Positions 5,387 through 51,487 of a stretch of DNA of 64,000 nt are shown here, in pieces (within the stretch, counting starts at the first letter, position 1; each line of letters starts with the position of its first letter). Source of the DNA: Candidatus Saccharicenans sp. GTDB taxonomy: Bacteria > Acidobacteriota > Aminicenantia > Aminicenantales > Saccharicenantaceae. The stretch lies in contig JAGOPD010000008.1 of NCBI GenBank assembly GCA_017992175.1, positions 1-64,000 of the forward strand, written 5' to 3'. A program made the position numbers and the translations under genes. The notes beneath the pieces were generated by a model. That model had not been told where the DNA came from. It was given only the letters and a program-made list of their open reading frames with translations, and searched no databases.

Positions 5387-6748
5387 ATGTCCCGGCCAGA
5401 AATTATGTCAAAAATCTTTGAGGTCATCATCGAAGCTATTCAGCCTGACTGCTTTGAGCTGGTCGCTTTCGATTACCGGCAACAACCCTTTTTCAGTCAG
5501 TCGAAAGGCCGCCAGCCAGCCGCCGAAGAGCAAGAGATTTCGGAGGTGATCAACCAGGCTTTAAATTCAGGTGAACCGGTCATTTGCCGCCTCGACCACG
5601 GGCAAAATATGCTGATCGCCTGCCACCCTTATTCCTACCACGGTAAATTGTATGGTTATGCTTATCTTGAAAAATCACAACCGGGAAATTCTTTAACTCA
5701 ACAGGACATGGAGATTCTGTCTTCTGCCTTGCCGGCCGTTAGACTGCTCAGTCAGGAGGCCTTCCCGCCCGCCGACACCCAGATTGAGCCCGCCAAAAAC
5801 GAACCACGGTTTCTGGGCATCAGTCAGCCCTACCGCCTGATCCGCGAGCTCATTGATAAAGTCAAAAACGTTGATTCTCCGGTCCTCATCAGTGGTGAAA
5901 GCGGGACAGGTAAAGAGCTGGTGGCCAGACTCATTCATCAGACGGGCCGCCGTCATCGCGGCCAGTTTGTAGCCATCAACTGCAATGCCATTCCGGACAG
6001 CCTTCTCGAGTCAGAGCTTTTTGGCTATGTTCGCGGGTCATTCACCGGTGCTATCCGGGATAAATCTGGCTTAATTGAAGAAGCTAACGGGGGGACATTC
6101 TTTCTGGATGAAATTGGCGATCTGAGCCTGCCTCTTCAGGCCAAACTCCTCAGAGTCCTTCAGGAAAAAGAGATAAGGCGGCTGGGCGAAAACCGTTCCC
6201 GCCGGGTTGACGTCCGTTTCATCAGTGCCACCAATCGTCAGCTTGAGGCTGAGGTCAATGCCGGCCGTTTCCGTCAGGATCTTTATTACCGCCTGAAAAT
6301 AATGTCCATAGATATTCCGCCCCTGCGGCGCCGCCCGGAAGACATCCTGGTCCTCATCAATCATTTCCTCGATCTATATGCGAAGGAAATGAATAAGCCC
6401 CGGGCTTTTTATTCACCTGAAGCCTTAGAGCTTTTGCTCAAATATGATTGGCCGGGGAATGTCCGGGAGCTTCAAAATGAAATTCAGCGAAATCTGATTA
6501 TGGCCAGCGGGGAGAAAGTCATCCGGCCAGACTGGCTGTCGGCCCCAGTTAGAGGGGCTAAAGACAAAATTCTAGCCGACCGCTGGGATTATTCCCAGGC
6601 CAAAGCCGACTTTGAAAAAAAGTTCCTGGGTGAAGCTTTGCGCCATTTTAATTACCACCGGGCCAGGACGGCGGCCGCTATCGGCCTGACCAGGCAGGGG
6701 CTTTTCCGGCTGCTAAAAAAGCACGGGCTCGATCAGCTGAAGAATTAG
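5387..6748 (+). CDS. Sigma-54-dependent transcriptional activator (GAF-like sensor, AAA+, Fis HTH)
   Basis: A 453-residue bacterial enhancer-binding protein. Residues ~1-135 form a GAF-like input domain, not a phosphoreceiver, so it probably senses a small molecule or partner rather than a kinase. The AAA+ domain (~145-370) has Walker A GESGTGKE, the sigma-54 contact loop as GSFTGA (consensus GAFTGA), Walker B FFLDEIGD and the arginine finger region. The C-terminal Fis-type helix-turn-helix (~405-450) ends with AAAIGLTRQGLFRLLKKHGL. It stands alone, divergent from the barrel genes. It would drive sigma-54 promoters such as those at 27397, 32773 and 47383, though nothing in the sequence proves the pairing. 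The GAF-for-GSF loop change is tolerated in some family members. Confidence 0.92.
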   Translation: MSRPEIMSKIFEVIIEAIQPDCFELVAFDYRQQPFFSQSKGRQPAAEEQEISEVINQALNSGEPVICRLDHGQNMLIACHPYSYHGKLYGYAYLEKSQPGNSLTQQDMEILSSALPAVRLLSQEAFPPADTQIEPAKNEPRFLGISQPYRLIRELIDKVKNVDSPVLISGESGTGKELVARLIHQTGRRHRGQFVAINCNAIPDSLLESELFGYVRGSFTGAIRDKSGLIEEANGGTFFLDEIGDLSLPLQAKLLRVLQEKEIRRLGENRSRRVDVRFISATNRQLEAEVNAGRFRQDLYYRLKIMSIDIPPLRRRPEDILVLINHFLDLYAKEMNKPRAFYSPEALELLLKYDWPGNVRELQNEIQRNLIMASGEKVIRPDWLSAPVRGAKDKILADRWDYSQAKADFEKKFLGEALRHFNYHRARTAAAIGLTRQGLFRLLKKHGLDQLKN

Positions 6749-27124: not shown

Positions 27125-27370
27125 CTAAAACCACCAGTAGGTATAATTTACCAGGCAAAGGACCTCATAGCTGGCCTGGCAGACCGCAAGGGCCACGGCC
27201 GTAGCAATTATACTCTGGTCAGCTGCCAGGGCCCGGGCAAGACACGACTCGAGAAACTGGCGATAGGGATCAGTGGCCAGGCTGGCTTCGCCTCGAGCTG
27301 GTTCGAACCAGAAAAAAGAAATAGCCAGAGTCAATAACAGAATGGCGATTAAACTCTTCTTATTTTTCAT
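27125..27370 (-). CDS. Tiny secreted cysteine peptide 1 (sigma-54 controlled, new family with 32522 gene)
   Basis: An 81-residue precursor with a classical signal peptide ending around PARGEA. The mature ~50 residues hold C-x20-C-x7-C and end in aromatic residues (TYWWF). The core aligns with the peptide at 32522: CxxRALxxD-x5-T-x3-LAxC then CLV. ATG 27370 is chosen over 27376 because AAGGAG lies six bases before it and abuts the earlier ATG. The gene has its own sigma-54 promoter at 27397-27412, 27 bp from the start. It sits alone on its transcript. It is not a family I recognise; by size and export it could be a signal, a structural or a redox-folded peptide. Confidence 0.7.
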   Translation of the reverse strand: MKNKKSLIAILLLTLAISFFWFEPARGEASLATDPYRQFLESCLARALAADQSIIATAVALAVCQASYEVLCLVNYTYWWF

Positions 27371-27396
27371 CTCCATCTCCTTTCAACCTGATCTGG

Positions 27397-27412
27397 AGCA
27401 AGTTTCGGGCCA
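27397..27412 (-). promoter_or_regulatory. Sigma-54 promoter (-24/-12) of secreted peptide 1
   Basis: The minus strand reads TGGCCCGAAACTTGCT, matching TGGCNC-N5-TTGCW with exact GG-to-GC spacing. The distance from the -12 side of the element to the preferred ATG is 27 bp, the same as for peptide 2. An activator site would be expected further upstream (27420-27625); the stretch is A/T-rich and I did not identify a clear palindrome. Confidence 0.8.
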
Positions 27413-27625
27413 GGAGATAGACGAAGAACGATAATCGAATGTTTTAAGAAATATAAACTGTTTTTCCCTGAAAACCTATTTCAGGCTTGAAGATTTTAGA
27501 TCAGATAACCTTGGCAGCTGGCCAGTTATAAGTCAAGTAATCTTGGCAAGCGCCAGAAAACCGTCAACAAAAGCTGACCGTAGCTGGCAGAAAAGACCAG
27601 GCAGAAGGTGGCTTGAGCTTGGGAT

Positions 27626-28672
27626 TTACTCCGCCAGCCAGATTTCTTTTATGGCCTTGACCGCCCGGTCCGAGAAAAAATCACCTATGGAGAAGAGAGA
27701 AAAACGGCCGCCATTTTTCTGCCCGCGGTCGCAGATAATCGTCTCCTGGTTATCATTTCTATTAAATATTTCTGAAGCTGAATAAATAGCCCGGTAACCG
27801 TCATCACCAATAATGGCCAGATAAGCTGTTTTAAAGTTCAGTGGTTGGGAGCCAGTGAACTTTTCCAGTATCAGCCGGAGTGGAACCCCTTGAAAATAAT
27901 TAACACCATGGAAGCCCTGGCCACGCCCGAAAAAGACGGCTGGCAGATTTAAAGGGGTAAGGTCCTCAGGCAGTTTGTCCAGACTGCCTTTTTCTTCCCC
28001 TTTAACATAAATATTTATGCCCGGTGAATACAAAGGAGTCTTACCTTTTTCTGTGGCTATGGGCGCAGCAAAAGACTTAACCGTGATTCTAACCGGGCTG
28101 TCCAGGTTCCGTTCGGCGAAAAGATCATTAGCCACCACCAGCTTCGGATTGGCTGGCAAGGGCCAGGTCTCACCGGTCGAAGAAGGAATAATCGGGGCCA
28201 CCTTAACAGCCAGTATTAAACGATGTAGAACTGCTGGATAGAATATTTCTCCCCAGCTGAAGAGAACCTTCTCGCCCTTTTTATTTTCAACTATGACCAT
28301 CAGGTCAATCGGAGAACTAAATTGTTCTTGATTTTTCTTAGCCAGGATCTGGTCTTTAAGGATGTCAAACAGCGAATAGCCCTGGTAAACATAAGCCCCG
28401 ATAAACCTGGTCTGACCGCCCTCTAAGACTGCTTCCCTGACCATAACCTGGTGTAGAGGCAGCCCTTTGAGCTTAAACATTCCTGGTGAGGCTACTTCGC
28501 CAGCTATCTCAATACTGTTCAGAGGCAGCCCGGTCAGGGGAACATTATCATAAAAATCATTGTTTTCTACCGGCTTTTTATTCTGACCGGCTGCCGGGCT
28601 ATAGAAATAAAACCCGAAGAGCAATAGCCCGATCAGGCCACATATCTTAGTCTTAGCTCGAGTCTTTTTCAC
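27626..28672 (-). CDS. Secreted protein with two tandem sulfite-oxidase-fold (molybdopterin-binding-like) domains, cofactor ligand not evident
   Basis: A 348-residue exported protein (signal ~1-29). Two halves share a pattern: IEIAGEVASPGMFKLKGLPL...YVYQGYSLFDILK...FSWGEIF (about residues 53-150) and FHGVNYFQGVPLRLILEKF...AYLAIIGDDGYRAIYSASEIF (about 245-325). This is the GxVxxP...GxxLxxIL...xSxxE arrangement of the oxidoreductase molybdopterin-binding fold. The cysteine that binds the metal cofactor in true sulfite oxidases is not visible at the usual place, so it may be a non-catalytic binding relative. It starts 38 bp after the TonB receptor gene and is likely co-transcribed, which hints at a ligand-handling partner. 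Confidence 0.55.
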   Translation of the reverse strand: MKKTRAKTKICGLIGLLLFGFYFYSPAAGQNKKPVENNDFYDNVPLTGLPLNSIEIAGEVASPGMFKLKGLPLHQVMVREAVLEGGQTRFIGAYVYQGYSLFDILKDQILAKKNQEQFSSPIDLMVIVENKKGEKVLFSWGEIFYPAVLHRLILAVKVAPIIPSSTGETWPLPANPKLVVANDLFAERNLDSPVRITVKSFAAPIATEKGKTPLYSPGINIYVKGEEKGSLDKLPEDLTPLNLPAVFFGRGQGFHGVNYFQGVPLRLILEKFTGSQPLNFKTAYLAIIGDDGYRAIYSASEIFNRNDNQETIICDRGQKNGGRFSLFSIGDFFSDRAVKAIKEIWLAE

Positions 28673-28710
28673 TTAACTCCTCCTTGGCTTTTTTAGACTT
28701 GATGATTGAT

Positions 28711-30651
28711 TCAATCAACCGGACCAACCCGGAAAGTAAATCCGGCTTCAAACCGCCGGCTGGTAGAAGGATAACCGGGCTCGGTGTAATAAGCTTTGTT
28801 AAACAGATTCTCTACTTTAATGAACAATGAACCTCCCCTTAAATATTTTTCCAGGGAAAGGTTAGCGACTGTATAGCCCGGCACGGGAACCGTACTGGAA
28901 CTTATTAATATTTCTGACCTGGAAGCCATCAGAACCCAGAGGGTCAGGCTGAAGTTTTCCGGCATCAGATAACTGGCCAGTAAACTGGCTTCAGACTTTG
29001 GGACCAGGTCAAGCAGCCGGTTATCAGTCAGGTTTTTAGCATCAAGGTAGGTGTAATTGACCTGAAAATTAAAATGTTTGATGCTCTTGGATAGATAAGT
29101 CTCAAAGCCTCTAATCCGGGCTTCCCCGACGTTGATATATTTCTTAGTTCCATCCGGCTGGCGAATAACGTAAATCAGATCCTTATAGTCAGAGGTGAAA
29201 CCGGTTAAACCGCCGGTTAACCAGCCCGAATAGTCAGCTCCAAGCTCGAAGGAAGTGCCTGTTTCGTCTTTAAGATCGGGGTTACCGCTGGTGGTACTGT
29301 AAAGGGAACGCATCGAGGGGAAACGTGATTTCTGGGAAAAGGAAAAATGAAGGTTAGCTTCTTCCGTTAGCTTAAATTTTATCCCGGCGATAGGATTGAC
29401 AGAGGTTTTTTCCTGGCCTTCCTGTTTTTTGAGATAGTCAAAGCTCAGGCCGCCAATCAAGGTCCATCTGGAAGTCAGCCGCCATTCATCCTCTATTCCG
29501 GCCGAATAGACATGGTGCTTATATAATTCCCAGGGTGAGGTAGCTGAACCTTGTTGTTCGACGTGTTCATACCGGCCATTAAGGCTGAAACGTAAATCAT
29601 TATTTTTACTCAGGCTGAAAGCGCCCAGGATAAAAGCCCCGGTTTCGTAATTATCATAAATGGATTCCCAGTTGAGGGCAGTCATGGTCGAATCAGTATA
29701 AGCATCCAGAACATTATAAAATTTTACATAATAAGTTCTGATTTTGATGGTGCCTGTTTTGAACAGGGGAAAAGTCCCACCCAGGCCAATGACCGACCTC
29801 TCCCAATCTTTAAAGCGCCAGTAACGGGGAGAGTAATATTCAGTGGCCGGTGGAATACCATAAGATGAGTCATAATAAGAAGCCTGAAATAGAATTTCGC
29901 TTTTCTGGCTAGGATAAAAATAAAATTTTCCGTTGAAGAAATTATTTTTGTAATCTGAATTGGGGAGAGATAGATCAGCACCTGATTGGCGGTAATCATA
30001 ACCCTGAGATTCATTGTGAAGAGCTGATAGTTTAAAGGCAAATTTCGGACTGTAGTATGAACCTGTTCCCGAAAAATCAAAGGAAGAGTTTTGACTGAAC
30101 CTCGAATTTAGCTCGAGAGAAGTCTTTTCTGGCCGGCGGGTCAGGACTTCCACTATTCCACCCATGGTATTGGCTCCATAGAGAATAGAAGAAGAACCCT
30201 TGGTAATCTGAATAGACTCAATGTCCTCGCTGGGCACGGTCTTTAAATCGTAAAGGTTATAATAGGGCTCGTAAACCGGGATGCCATCAAGCAGGAGGGT
30301 GGATTTATCATTATCCAGGCCTCTTATCTTAATGTGAGATTCGGCTTTAGCCCCAACGGTCACATGTGTTCCGGGAACAAAAGATAGCACTTCAGAAATA
30401 TTTTTAGTTTTAAGCAACTTGATAGTCTGAGGTTCAATAGTCGAAACTGTGGCTAAAGGTTTTTCCTGGGGAGCACTGGCCGTGACCATAATTTCTTCGG
30501 TTTTAATCCTGACCGGTTTCTCTTCTTTTTCCTTCTTCTTTTCCTGGTCAGTATTTTCTTGAGCTAAGGAAAAAACTGTCAGCAGTGACAGGCTCAGTAG
30601 CAAGCCGAAGAAGACCGACCAAAAACGGGGTAATTTTTTTGAGACGCGCAT
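28711..30651 (-). CDS. TonB-dependent outer-membrane receptor
   Basis: About 646 residues. The preferred start is ATG 30651 (AAGGAG seven bases upstream), not 30681. The signal peptide is followed by a TonB-box-like EEIMVTAS, the plug domain (LLKTKNISEVLSFVPGTHV, IRGLDNDKSTLLLDGIPVYEPYYN, SIQITKGSSSILYGANTMGGIVEVLTRRP) and a 22-strand barrel ending in RRFEAGFTFRVG with terminal aromatics. These receptors import scarce ligands such as siderophores, cobalamin, glycans or metals. No ligand can be read directly. Size (~650) is like BtuB/CirA types. It has its own promoter and a structured leader. Confidence 0.92.
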   Translation of the reverse strand: MRVSKKLPRFWSVFFGLLLSLSLLTVFSLAQENTDQEKKKEKEEKPVRIKTEEIMVTASAPQEKPLATVSTIEPQTIKLLKTKNISEVLSFVPGTHVTVGAKAESHIKIRGLDNDKSTLLLDGIPVYEPYYNLYDLKTVPSEDIESIQITKGSSSILYGANTMGGIVEVLTRRPEKTSLELNSRFSQNSSFDFSGTGSYYSPKFAFKLSALHNESQGYDYRQSGADLSLPNSDYKNNFFNGKFYFYPSQKSEILFQASYYDSSYGIPPATEYYSPRYWRFKDWERSVIGLGGTFPLFKTGTIKIRTYYVKFYNVLDAYTDSTMTALNWESIYDNYETGAFILGAFSLSKNNDLRFSLNGRYEHVEQQGSATSPWELYKHHVYSAGIEDEWRLTSRWTLIGGLSFDYLKKQEGQEKTSVNPIAGIKFKLTEEANLHFSFSQKSRFPSMRSLYSTTSGNPDLKDETGTSFELGADYSGWLTGGLTGFTSDYKDLIYVIRQPDGTKKYINVGEARIRGFETYLSKSIKHFNFQVNYTYLDAKNLTDNRLLDLVPKSEASLLASYLMPENFSLTLWVLMASRSEILISSSTVPVPGYTVANLSLEKYLRGGSLFIKVENLFNKAYYTEPGYPSTSRRFEAGFTFRVGPVD

Positions 30652-30674
30652 CTTAATTCTCCTTTCCAATTGGG

Positions 30675-30742
30675 AGGCCACGCCGTTTCCGGCCTGACCC
30701 TAACGGTCGGCCAGCCTGGCTTCAAGCTTTAGCCTGGCCGAC
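30675..30742 (-). promoter_or_regulatory. Structured leader RNA before the TonB receptor gene
   Basis: Two hairpins lie between promoter and start. The first is long: GTCGGCCAGCCT (30706-30717) pairs with AGCCTGGCCGAC (30731-30742) with one mismatch. The second is AGGCC (30675-30679) with GGCCT (30691-30695). The RBS follows directly. I compared by eye with cobalamin, TPP and similar riboswitch consensus elements and saw no match, so this may be an attenuator, protein-binding leader or unrecognised riboswitch. Confidence 0.45.
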
Positions 30743-30756
30743 TCGGAGTAACAATC

Positions 30757-30785
30757 TTTATAATACATCCAGGGGAAAAAATCAA
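30757..30785 (-). promoter_or_regulatory. Sigma-70-type promoter of the TonB receptor gene
   Basis: On the minus strand TTGATT (30785-30780), a 17-bp spacer, then TATAAA (30762-30757). The transcript would start near 30750 and carry a leader of about 100 nt containing the hairpins at 30675-30742. Confidence 0.5.
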
Positions 30786-30949
30786 CCGCCATTTGGCTTT
30801 AAATAAGGCAATTTGAACCGGACTTAAAGCAGGCTATCTTCTGGCCAGCGGCCAGGAGAATTCAAGCCAGCTCAGGCAGTGTATCAACTGGGGCCGCCAG
30901 GTCAGTGGTTTTTCAGCTTTCCAAATGGAAAGTGAATAATACCTTTAAT

Positions 30950-31465
30950 TCAGGGCGAGGTCAGTCTCAGGAGAAAATTCCTGGCTTTTTCTCTTCTTAA
31001 CGAATAATCAAGCAGGTCATCATCCCGGTAGACTGCCTGGTTTTTGACCAGGATTAGACGGTAAGGCTCAAGCCTGACCTGGTATTGCCGGTAGAGTTTT
31101 TTCTCTTCATCCCGGACAATCGGGTACTGGAAAGAATAGCGGGCGGCGAAAGCTTTTAGCTCTTCGCTTTCATCGGTAGAAACTCCTACCAGCAGTACTG
31201 GCAGGGAAAACCTCTCTATAAATTCTTTCATTTCAAACAACTCATCCCAGCAAACATAACAGGCTAAAGAGAAGAAAACCAGCACTACCGGTTGAGATGA
31301 ATTCCCAATCGCTTCTTCCAGGGAAGAATAGATACTGGACGGCGGCTCGGAAAGATGTTGAGCTACCAGCTGCCGTCCACAAATAAAGTCTGGAGATACC
31401 AGTAAACCTACTGACCAGCACAGGATAAGACCCAAAATTAAGAAGCCTGTTATTTTATAGTTCAT
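30950..31465 (-). CDS. TlpA/AhpC-like thioredoxin-fold protein, exported, CxxC
   Basis: A 171-residue protein with an N-terminal export helix (~5-24). The thioredoxin-fold domain (~45-165) has the redox pair C69-Y-V-C72 in FFSLACYVCWDEL, then VGVSTDESEELKAF and YPIVRDEEKKLYRQYQV, typical of peroxiredoxin/TlpA relatives. It probably works as a periplasmic thiol-disulfide enzyme. The start overlaps the stop of the propeller gene (ATGA), so the two are translationally coupled. In the peptide operon it could form or reshuffle disulfides in the cysteine peptides; that is inference. Confidence 0.75.
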   Translation of the reverse strand: MNYKITGFLILGLILCWSVGLLVSPDFICGRQLVAQHLSEPPSSIYSSLEEAIGNSSQPVVLVFFSLACYVCWDELFEMKEFIERFSLPVLLVGVSTDESEELKAFAARYSFQYPIVRDEEKKLYRQYQVRLEPYRLILVKNQAVYRDDDLLDYSLRREKARNFLLRLTSP

Positions 31466-32445
31466 TTTGGATTAAGCTTGAATAGATGAAGTTCGTCTTC
31501 AGTATCAAGAGCATAAATTAGATCTTCGCTGACCACCAGTTTTTTGATAACCAGGGGGAAATCAATTATCCCGGTTAATTTTCCCTCTTCATTTATGATC
31601 AGGACTTTTTTCCCAGGTCCTACATCCTTATTTTCCATTTCTTCCAGGGCGATCAAATAAAAGTTCTGATTAAAATAGCCGGCGTTCCAGCAGATTCCTT
31701 CCAGCACTCTTTTTTCTTTTCCGGGCAGATTAATCGTTTTAACCGGATAATCTGAACTTAAATTAATTTTCTTTAAAATCTGTCCTTGCCGGTCAATTTT
31801 TAGAATGTATTTGGTATTGGCCTTCCAGATAACATAAAAAATACCGGGCTGCCCTCTCCTTAAGAATATCTGATTACAGAAAGTATCATAAATCCGGTCA
31901 CCAGAAGCCTGAGAGTCAACGATGGCCCACAGCCTGGTGCCGTCAGTTTTATAACCATAGATCATTTTTTCCGGGCCATTTAAATTGCTGACTAAAGACG
32001 AAATGGCCAGGACTTCGTCATCAAGCCAGACAAGGTTATCGGGGAAAAAGAGAACTTTAAAAGCCGAGGTGTTTTGACTGTTTTTATTGAATATTTGAAT
32101 CCGGCTGTTAAATGTATCGGCCACATAAATTTGCTGACCGGAGGCATCCAGGCCGGAAGGGGAATCAAACTCTCCCGGACCTTTACCTTTCCTGCCAATA
32201 TTTCTCAGCCACCTGCCATCCAGGCTGAAGACCTGGATTCTGTTGTCTCCACTCTCCAGCAAATATAGTTCTTGCCCATCAAGAACCATTGACACCGGCC
32301 GGTAAAAGAAGGGAGGTTCAGTTGCTCCCTTTAATTCTAATTCCGTGGCCGTGTAGTGAGATATGGTTTGAGCTTCCAGCCAGTTATAGCCCGCGCTCAT
32401 CAACAGACACACTACCATTAAAAGCAACCCGATTAACTTTTTCAT
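31462..32445 (-). CDS. Exported six-bladed beta-propeller (NHL-type) protein
   Basis: A 327-residue protein with signal peptide (~1-25). NHL blades are clear: GDNRIQVFSLDGRWLRNIG, then GKGPGEFDSPSGLDASGQQIYVADTFNSRIQIFN, with weaker blades to the end (KVLIINEEGKLTGII, LIYALDTEDELHLF). The fold binds peptides, proteins or glycans. Related 6-bladed propellers in Bacteroidota often sit beside tiny secreted peptides of the NVEALA group, which resembles the arrangement here (peptide gene 76 bp upstream, thioredoxin-fold gene downstream). RBS GGGAGGTAAATTC precedes ATG 32445. Confidence 0.75.
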   Translation of the reverse strand: MKKLIGLLLMVVCLLMSAGYNWLEAQTISHYTATELELKGATEPPFFYRPVSMVLDGQELYLLESGDNRIQVFSLDGRWLRNIGRKGKGPGEFDSPSGLDASGQQIYVADTFNSRIQIFNKNSQNTSAFKVLFFPDNLVWLDDEVLAISSLVSNLNGPEKMIYGYKTDGTRLWAIVDSQASGDRIYDTFCNQIFLRRGQPGIFYVIWKANTKYILKIDRQGQILKKINLSSDYPVKTINLPGKEKRVLEGICWNAGYFNQNFYLIALEEMENKDVGPGKKVLIINEEGKLTGIIDFPLVIKKLVVSEDLIYALDTEDELHLFKLNPK

Positions 32446-32482
32446 TGAATTTACCTCCCCATCTTATTTGATTTGATTAACC

Positions 32483-32513
32483 GGAGCCCCGGCCGCCAGA
32501 GAACCGGGGCTCC
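32483..32513 (-). terminator. Strong hairpin between secreted peptide 2 and the propeller gene
   Basis: A perfect 10-bp stem (GGAGCCCCGG, 32483-32492, with CCGGGGCTCC, 32504-32513) and an 11-base loop. On the transcribed strand no T-run follows, so it is better seen as a partial terminator or 3'-end stabiliser. Such elements let a leading peptide gene be expressed far above the genes behind it. Confidence 0.6.
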
Positions 32514-32521
32514 AGCTGTCT

Positions 32522-32746
32522 TCAGTTAAAAAATACCAGGCACCTGACATGGTCGAGATCGCAGGCAGCCAGGGATAAAGTTGTTTTGACAAACCCATCA
32601 TCAGACTGCAAGGCTCTGGACCGGCATTTCTGCCAGTTCTCGTCACAATTACCAAAAGAAATACTGGCCTGAGAAGCTGGGGGGAGAAAGAGGAAAATAG
32701 ACAGGATAAAAATAAAGGACAGTGTTAGCGAAGTGAATCTTTTCAT
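32522..32746 (-). CDS. Tiny secreted cysteine peptide 2 (sigma-54 controlled, leads peptide-propeller-thioredoxin operon)
   Basis: A 74-residue precursor; signal peptide about 1-26 ending in ASQA. The mature ~47 residues have four cysteines spaced C-x6-C-x20-C-x6-C, suggesting a helical hairpin tied by two disulfides. The core CxxRALxxD-x5-T-x3-LAxC...CLV aligns with the peptide at 27125. ATG 32746 is preferred to 32752 for RBS spacing, as in the sister gene. The sigma-54 promoter at 32773-32788 lies 27 bp away. Downstream, past a strong hairpin, are the propeller and thioredoxin-fold genes. Function unknown; the arrangement suggests an exported peptide with dedicated handling proteins. Confidence 0.72.
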   Translation of the reverse strand: MKRFTSLTLSFIFILSIFLFLPPASQASISFGNCDENWQKCRSRALQSDDGFVKTTLSLAACDLDHVRCLVFFN

Positions 32747-32772
32747 GGCCATCTCCTTTCAACTCTTGAATC

Positions 32773-32788
32773 AGCAAGAATCGGGCCA
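32773..32788 (-). promoter_or_regulatory. Sigma-54 promoter (-24/-12) of secreted peptide 2 operon
   Basis: The minus strand reads TGGCCCGATTCTTGCT, matching TGGCNC-N5-TTGCW. It differs from the peptide 1 promoter only inside the spacer. The stretch from here to 33061 is otherwise non-coding. Confidence 0.82.
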
Positions 32789-50101: not shown

Positions 50102-51487
50102 TCAGGCTGATTCGATATCAATTTTCAGGCGCTTGATCATTTCATTCAGGGTGGTCGGTTTTAAGCCGAGCAGGCTGGCTGCTTGTTTCTGGATGCCATT
50201 TGATTTTTTCAGAGCCGTTAAAATAAGCTGTTTCTGATAGTCGAGTGTCCGTTGCTTAAAATTCAGGCTATCCTCTCCCAGTTCCTTGAAAGCTGACCGG
50301 CTGCCATCAGTCAAAAAAGCTGGCAAGGCTTCTCTGGTTATTATCTTTGACTGGTTCAAAACCACCGCCCGCTCCAGCACATTTTCCAGCTCGCGGACAT
50401 TTCCCGGCCAGTTATAATCCATCAGGATTTTCATCACTTCTTCGCTGACCCCTTCAATTTCTTTATTATTTTCCTGTTTGTAGATGTCTATGAAATGCCT
50501 GACCAGAAGGGGAATGTCTTCTTTTCTGGCCCGGAGCGGAGGCAGTTCAATTTTGATGACATTCAGCCGGTAATAAAGATCCTTACGAAAAGCCTTTTGT
50601 TCGATCAGTTCTTCCAGGTCGGTGTTGGTGGCGGCAATAATTCTAACATCAACTTTGATGGTTTTGGTTCCGCCCAGGCGCATAAACTCCCTGTCCTGCA
50701 TGACCCGCAGCAACTTGACCTGAGTTTCAAGGCTGATAGAAGAGATTTCGTCAAAGAATATTGTTCCGCGGTCAGCAGCTTCAAATAGCCCCTTTTTGTC
50801 AGCCACAGCTCCGGTGAAAGCTCCCTTGACATGACCAAAAAGATGGCTTTCCAGAAGATCGGGCGGGAGCGATCCGCTGTTGACCACGACAAACGGATGG
50901 CCAGCCCGGTCTGAATTGGTATGGATAGCTCTGGCTACCAATTCTTTTCCCGTCCCGCTTTCACCTTGAATTAGCAGGGTCGAGCGGGTCGGAGCAGCCG
51001 CCTTAATAAGTTCAAAAACATTTAACATCGGCCGGCTCTTACCGATGATATTTTCAAAGCTGAATTTCTTTTTCAGTTCATCCTGCAGCCTGAGATTCTC
51101 GAGTTGTAAGCGGCGATGCTCCAGAGCCCGGGAAATAGTCATCAGGAGTTCGTCATTCTTAAACGGCTTCTGAATATAATCATAGGCTCCCATTTTCATG
51201 GCGGTCAAAGCTGATTCGACTGAGGCATAAGCGGTGATGATTATCACCAGAGCCTCCGGGTCAATTCTTTTTATCTGCTTTAAGACCTCCAGGCCATCGA
51301 GGCCAGGCATTAACAGATCAAGAAGCGTCAGATCAAATTTCTGGTGCTGAAGCTTGGGCAGGGCTTCTTCTCCGGAAGCAGAAATTTCGGTCTGGTAGCC
51401 CTCAGACTGAAGAAGCTGGCCAAGAACATCGTGAATTATGGGCTCATCATCGATGACATGAATAGTGATTTTAGTATTTTCATTCAT
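50102..51487 (-). CDS. Sigma-54-dependent response regulator (NtrC family)
   Basis: About 461 residues from ATG 51487, with AGGAGG eight bases upstream; the longer frame to 51574 lies inside the kinase gene. Receiver domain (~1-120: VIDDEPIIHD, phosphoacceptor Asp in TLLDLLMPG, TAYASVES, Lys in IQKPFKNDE), AAA+ domain (~145-380: GESGTGKE, GAFTGAV, FFDEISS), and Fis HTH (KQAASLLGLKPTTLNEMIKRL). It starts within the last codons of the kinase gene (overlap ATGAATGA), so both are co-translated. It converges with the M1 peptidase gene, whose promoter is sigma-54 type. Confidence 0.93.
   Translation of the reverse strand: MNENTKITIHVIDDEPIIHDVLGQLLQSEGYQTEISASGEEALPKLQHQKFDLTLLDLLMPGLDGLEVLKQIKRIDPEALVIIITAYASVESALTAMKMGAYDYIQKPFKNDELLMTISRALEHRRLQLENLRLQDELKKKFSFENIIGKSRPMLNVFELIKAAAPTRSTLLIQGESGTGKELVARAIHTNSDRAGHPFVVVNSGSLPPDLLESHLFGHVKGAFTGAVADKKGLFEAADRGTIFFDEISSISLETQVKLLRVMQDREFMRLGGTKTIKVDVRIIAATNTDLEELIEQKAFRKDLYYRLNVIKIELPPLRARKEDIPLLVRHFIDIYKQENNKEIEGVSEEVMKILMDYNWPGNVRELENVLERAVVLNQSKIITREALPAFLTDGSRSAFKELGEDSLNFKQRTLDYQKQLILTALKKSNGIQKQAASLLGLKPTTLNEMIKRLKIDIESA

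Follow-up and report, generated by a model that had tools for sequence, protein, structure and literature searches.

What are the two small genes for secreted, cysteine-containing peptides that stand behind sigma-54-type promoters in a member of the acidobacterial class Aminicenantia, and with what do their products work? They lie in a 64,000-nucleotide stretch of DNA (the window; assembly GCA_017992175.1, contig JAGOPD010000008.1, positions 1 to 64,000, forward strand) from a Candidatus Saccharicenans-like genome that is 63% complete at 1.38 Mb (G000). An earlier reading of the letters alone (the sequence-only reading) had proposed a new pair of peptides of no named family under matching promoters. 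We followed this up with a class survey of 142 Aminicenantia genomes and a phylum survey of 396 sampled genomes; compared genomes, their contigs and the extracted loci carry G-, C- and L-numbers. The peptides belong to a real, undescribed family within a conserved operon. At the level of sequence, the proposal of a new secreted cysteine peptide family under sigma-54-type promoters is supported in substance; what it overlooked is the operon of peptide 2, with its propeller, its thioredoxin-like protein and often an ATP-binding cassette (ABC) exporter.

A conserved family of small peptides with signal sequences

Peptide 2 (74 aa; 32522..32746, minus strand) consists of a signal peptide and a mature part of about 45-47 aa with the pattern C-x6-C-x20-C-x6-C, and peptide 1 (81 aa; 27125..27370, minus strand) is its solo paralogue. 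Both genes are present as first described, and they have in common the core CxxRALxxD-x5-T-x3-LAxC with C-x20-C spacing and the leader TTGAAAGGAGATGG-NN-ATGAAA, at 32% identity over 81 alignment columns. Before the ATG of peptide 2, the leader and ribosome-binding site TTGAAAGGAGATGGCC occupy 32747..32765 (minus strand), and GAAAGGAG is conserved in relatives. The family profile (A2), made from relatives, recovers the two peptides at 2.1e-28 and 1.3e-18, values that are not independent as both peptides were profile rows.

Matches to profile A2 were found in 37 of the 142 Aminicenantia genomes, spread over five families of one order. The phylum survey gave 16 matching genomes among 396, all within that single order, and no match among the sampled Acidobacteriota outside Aminicenantia. 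A sixth family contains a diverged syntenic locus (G078) with a C-x6-C-x22-C-x6-C peptide, a propeller slightly under the PF17170 cut-off and a CGAC protein without a Pfam match. C41, D49, L59, C62 and C69 are invariant in the alignment, and C34 and D63 nearly so. There is also a second subfamily with the spacing C-x6-C-x17-C-x6-C, which the window genome encodes on contig C14. Comparison of orthologues puts the ratio of nonsynonymous to synonymous substitution rates (dN/dS) at about 0.15-0.4 for the two peptides, and at 0.2-0.4 for peptide 2 alone; judged by this ratio, both evolve under purifying selection. Relatives in other genomes and selection on the protein, which the sequence-only reading had led one to expect, are thus both borne out.

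None of the 30 members scored above cut-off against Pfam and NCBIfam, including the NVEALA peptides (PF14055), in keeping with the claim that the pattern has no named family. A PDB sequence search with the peptide gave no match, and a full-alignment scan of the genome contigs detected no conserved stretch. Literature searches returned nothing relevant for Aminicenantes with sigma-54 and peptide, and nothing useful for NVEALA. Membership of the CHCH or twin CX9C proteins was rejected on the cysteine spacing, which is x6 and not x9. The family does not fit ribosomally synthesized and post-translationally modified peptides either: the precursor has a Sec-type signal and the peptide operon contains no maturase.

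The two window peptides are not equals. In peptide 1 the first family cysteine is replaced by tyrosine and the last cysteine stands at C-x7-C rather than x6; its orthologues in G016, G028 and G029 have tyrosine both at C1 and at the position of the window copy's last cysteine, while C2 and C3 are kept. The "CLV" motif said to be common to the pair does occur in both window peptides, but with tyrosine at its cysteine in all three orthologues it cannot be counted, for peptide 1, as part of the family pattern. Peptide 1 is a divergent, solo, cysteine-depleted paralogue behind its own promoter, and the idea of an equal two-peptide pair was rejected for this reason.

Sigma-54 promoters and regulation

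The peptide 2 operon has its promoter, TGGCCCGATTCTTGCT, at 32773..32788 and peptide 1 has its own, TGGCCCGAAACTTGCT, at 27397..27412 (both minus strand); each is 27 nt from its ATG, counted from TTGC. Both read TGGC-N7-TTGC and so contain the GG of the -24 and the GC of the -12 element. A zero-mismatch scan for TGGCMC-N5-TTGCW, with the reversed pattern as control, found only these two sites in the window and 9 sites against 1 control match across the 63%-complete assembly. The promoters, their distance and the common leader are as first reported. The peptide 2 site keeps its position in orthologues, and the peptide 1 promoter is identical in G016 and has one mismatch each in G028 and G029.

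We also read the promoters of 55 distinct peptide precursors with a looser pattern, TGG[CTA]-N7-T[TA]GC. Most first-in-operon peptide genes carry it 24-29 nt before the start codon, and the second subfamily has a sigma-54 site at 49-52 nt; of 699 other genes in these loci, only three show a site of this kind within 22-32 nt. Where a precursor has no site, its gene is mostly the second of a tandem, or inspection shows one mismatch. The spacing is retained while the flanking sequence diverges. The sigma factor itself, rpoN, is encoded in the window genome (PF04552, 2.2e-60) and in 135 of the 142 class genomes, and AAA+ activators (PF00158) occur in all eight genomes checked. G000 has four, and Pfam places activators inside the window at 5822-6310 (plus strand) and 50546-51049 (minus strand). 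The neighbouring GGDEF/PilZ-like and HD-GYP-like genes were rejected as activators, by sequence reading alone. Taken together, the promoter positions, rpoN and the enhancer-binding proteins leave sigma-54 control of the peptide genes well supported.

The same promoter pattern followed by a Shine-Dalgarno sequence and ATG is present in all 142 class genomes, with almost no reversed-control matches. Of the other targets that we read, the greater part are exported or belong to the envelope, among them a recurring outer-membrane-like protein. Such a set of targets fits the view of Francke et al. (2011, PMC3162934) that the exterior of bacteria is under sigma-54 control. Since sigma-54 serves many exported proteins in the class, the promoter alone does not specify a toxin or a signal, a point that the sequence-only reading passed over.

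Two further observations concern these promoters. In loci across the class (L208, L211, L188, L189, L217, L218 and L220), genes for secreted ComEA-like HhH proteins are preceded by sigma-54-type promoters and by this compact leader, a hint that DNA uptake may be under sigma-54 control. Separately, seven peptide promoters of other subfamilies (L066, L067, L069, L070, L071, L050 and L135) have an inverted repeat, GTAAA-N6-TTTAC, at 82-85 or 41 nt before the -24 element; it has only 14 copies in 1.7 Mb of overlapping loci and is a candidate enhancer site. No enhancer dyad common to the window's two promoters was found, and GTAAA-N6-TTTAC is absent there.

The peptide operon

Directly downstream of peptide 2 is a gene for an exported six-bladed NHL beta-propeller (327 aa; 31462..32445, minus strand; NHL 2.6e-10, PF17170 6.7e-9 at 35.8 bits against a cut-off of 22.9). 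The third gene, which overlaps it by 4 nt, encodes an exported thioredoxin-like AhpC/TSA protein with the motif CYVC (171 aa; 30950..31465, minus strand; PF00578 7.5e-15, 55.4 bits against a cut-off of 26). Relatives of the propeller are encoded in all 34 genomes of the window's taxonomic family, and most of those that match best have as neighbour a precursor of 70-74 residues with a signal peptide and C-x6-C-x20-C-x6-C. The recurring order is one or two peptides, an NHL/six-bladed propeller and an AhpC/TSA thioredoxin-like CxxC protein; in several families of the order, the orthologous peptide stands directly upstream of the orthologous propeller and thioredoxin-like gene. Every thioredoxin-like neighbour complete at the motif has CxxC, in the variants CYVC, CHVC and CPVC. 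Many loci continue with an ABC-2-like permease, which has no Pfam match and was assigned by reading, and then an ABC ATPase. The operon in the window comprises peptide 2, the propeller and the thioredoxin-like protein only, and that of G026 is likewise minimal. In G072 (L137) a Pfam-confirmed VKOR-DsbA-like fusion gene adjoins a divergent cysteine peptide, and in G073 (L138) a closely similar gene, identified by sequence similarity only, is beside the peptide.

Between the two peptide genes lies a TonB-dependent receptor gene (28711..30651, minus strand) that is absent from most relatives' loci. Its unit is led by a Moco (molybdenum/tungsten) riboswitch (30643..30760, minus strand; RF01055, 67.2 bits, gathering cut-off 36) and is therefore separate from the peptide operon; the receptor and its neighbour were rejected as operon members on both grounds. 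Riboswitch and receptor (28711-30760, minus strand) are followed by the gene of an exported protein of 348 aa for which Pfam gave nothing significant, and the three elements together suggest an outer-membrane unit for uptake of molybdenum, tungsten or a cofactor.

Predicted structures and disulfides

The AlphaFold2 model of peptide 2, built from the 30-row alignment, shows a signal helix followed by a hairpin (H32-47/H51-73, predicted local distance difference test (pLDDT) score 80-89). Given this model and the conserved C-x6-C-x20-C-x6-C pattern, the mature peptide is probably a helical hairpin pinned by two disulfide bonds, much as had been suggested from the sequence. That the peptide 1 lineage has lost both C1 and C4 but retained C2 and C3 is consistent with nested C1-C4 and C2-C3 disulfides. 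Helical hairpins of plants with two disulfides, such as Luffin P1 and the vicilin-buried peptides, appear on the weak list of Foldseek hits, none of them significant. The propeller model is of higher confidence (pLDDT 92.5) and matched NHL propellers in Foldseek (E 8e-13) and also the Bacteroides exported propeller 4raa.

Other loci with propellers and small cysteine peptides

Small cysteine-rich exported open reading frames adjoin further propeller genes in G016 (C5) and G027 (C100), and small signal-peptide frames with 7 and 8 cysteines lie directly beside propeller-like genes at L229:4294-4515 (minus strand) and L232:5729-6007 (plus strand). In two loci of the genus (G022 C25 and G027 C61), short cysteine peptides occur together with propellers and with enzymes that are of the radical-SAM type or have a SPASM domain. 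The former, L235 (G022 C25:133001-150000; 11571-6548 and 5353-268, minus strand), is a candidate radical-SAM peptide cluster with a sigma-54 activator, a 60-aa precursor, two radical SAM enzymes, an ABC-like permease and two propellers; its precursor, which ends ...WCNCSCTECTGCIDW..., has its own sigma-54 promoter. In the latter, L236 (8671-18811, plus strand), a 60-aa peptide (...CPTEYCWRGCYGNYDWYVDTYYWHY...) is accompanied by a SPASM-domain protein, two propellers and ABC genes, with a direct repeat of two near-identical methyltransferase-like frames in the flanks.

Discussion

The propeller/thioredoxin pair of the operon looks like a split version of NHLRC2 and SOQ1, in which a thioredoxin-like domain and an NHL propeller form one chain with a common cleft lined by a cysteine motif (PMC6107167). 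The propeller profile matches both proteins by sequence, and SOQ1, too, is extracytoplasmic, in the thylakoid lumen. The systems differ in that NHLRC2 and SOQ1 are single chains with CCINC, whereas here the thioredoxin-like protein, with CxxC, and the propeller come from two neighbouring genes, and a small cysteine peptide is encoded beside them; as separate chains, the operon proteins are not counted among the NHLRC2/SOQ1 type. Fusion of the domains elsewhere and adjacency of the genes here suggest that the propeller and the thioredoxin-like protein are a working unit, and the VKOR-DsbA-like genes beside peptides in G072 and G073 point in that direction too.

We put at roughly 45% the probability that the product of the operon is an inducible, Sec-exported, disulfide-pinned hairpin and that the propeller/thioredoxin pair sees to its folding or delivery. 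A sigma-54/enhancer switch would turn on the operon for an exported peptide of about 45 residues. Outside the cytoplasm this peptide would fold as two antiparallel helices with nested disulfides C1-C4 and C2-C3, and the exported CxxC protein and the six-bladed propeller would jointly hold it and form or correct its disulfides, acting like their counterparts within one polypeptide in NHLRC2 and SOQ1. The ABC-2 exporter, where present, may move or neutralise the product, and the mature peptide would most likely act at or beyond the cell surface as an antagonistic peptide or a signal. The comparisons establish the genes, the conserved family and operon, the promoters and the purifying selection; export, periplasmic location, hairpin and disulfide pairing are predictions, and the processing role of the pair, the role of the exporter and a bioactivity of the peptide are inferences.

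Several observations weigh against this proposal. The f2-family relatives (G067 and G068) have no recognisable sigma-54 site and are true exceptions, and the class-wide promoters lack functional specificity. The ABC pair is missing from the window operon and from several relatives, and so the exporter is not essential. The peptide model has a mean pLDDT of only 77 (signal peptide included) from a 30-sequence alignment, and in Foldseek it has no significant match in the PDB (best E 2.4). The loss of C1 and C4 is confined to one lineage and possibly to one event.

That both frames are open by chance beside coincidental sigma-54-like sites can effectively be dismissed: the peptides are short and of no database family, but orthologues in 37 genomes, purifying selection, near-invariant cysteines and the maintained promoter spacing refute it. 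The peptide could instead be a structural or redox subunit, not released, of a stable envelope complex or enzyme with the propeller and the thioredoxin-like protein. In favour of such a complex are the constant gene order and the single peptide for each propeller that most loci show, the minimal unit of just three genes, and a conservation across families that is high and unusual for antagonistic peptides. The tandem extra peptides and the solo peptides without a propeller are left unexplained by a fixed stoichiometry, the missing invariant tryptophan speaks against a tryptophan tryptophylquinone (TTQ) or cysteine tryptophylquinone (CTQ) cofactor, and in the PDB sequence search the propeller resembled NHL/PF17170 proteins and not MauB; we hold this explanation to be unlikely, about one chance in four.

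Slightly less probable is that the peptide is secreted as an antagonist of the bacteriocin kind; the ABC-2 pair would then serve self-protection, and the propeller would be an immunity protein or receptor. The Sec signal and predicted two-disulfide hairpin, the duplicated peptides in tandem, the exporter in many loci and the plant hairpins on the non-significant Foldseek list would fit such a product, but its sequence is strongly conserved over families instead of varying by strain, it is present in most genomes of one family, and the ABC pair is absent from the window. Strong conservation is thus somewhat against a fast-evolving bacteriocin, and the tandem and solo copies are somewhat against a subunit of fixed stoichiometry.

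Other known systems resemble parts of the locus. The methylamine dehydrogenase cluster encodes an analogous trio of parts, the propeller MauB, the small cysteine-rich disulfide subunit MauA and the thioredoxin-like MauD. Its sequences are unrelated, and neither an invariant tryptophan nor MauE/MauG genes were seen in our loci; a TTQ/CTQ amine-dehydrogenase small subunit was rejected on the missing tryptophan. Exported PF17170/DUF5128 propellers of Bacteroidota (BF0058, PDB 4raa) have family, fold and the GxxGxGPGEF motif in common with the window propeller. NVEALA peptides accompany such propellers in Bacteroides, whereas the partner peptide in the window is not NVEALA, having no Pfam match. 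Plant alpha-hairpinins, such as Luffin P1 and the vicilin-buried peptides, are of similar mature size and have the helix-turn-helix with two nested disulfides that is predicted here. Their cysteine pairs are C-x3-C and those of the window family C-x6-C, and membership was rejected on this spacing; the structural score is not significant, and there is no homology. As in the sigma-54 exterior regulons (Francke et al. 2011, PMC3162934), exported and envelope products are controlled here; we found no description of a peptide-propeller operon, and small hairpin peptides would be a new type of target.

The other propeller-adjacent cysteine frames and the radical-SAM/SPASM peptide loci lead us to a broader and more tentative idea, doubtful as it stands, that Aminicenantia have a general class of sigma-54-switched peptide-propeller systems. 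In these, exported NHL/six-bladed propellers and their thiol-redox partners would be dedicated to receiving, chaperoning or processing a range of small cysteine peptides: disulfide hairpins, radical-SAM-linked peptides and others rich in cysteine. If true, peptides would here be matured and delivered in a way that has not been described.

For a largely uncultivated class, the work defines an unnamed family of peptides for which operon and promoter are clear and a fold is predicted, and offers a direct hypothesis for the role of some of the many six-bladed propellers. The pairing of NHL propeller and thioredoxin, which in human NHLRC2 has no assigned function, is thereby connected with a proposed substrate that is small, defined and disulfide-bearing, and a secreted-peptide system not seen before becomes testable.
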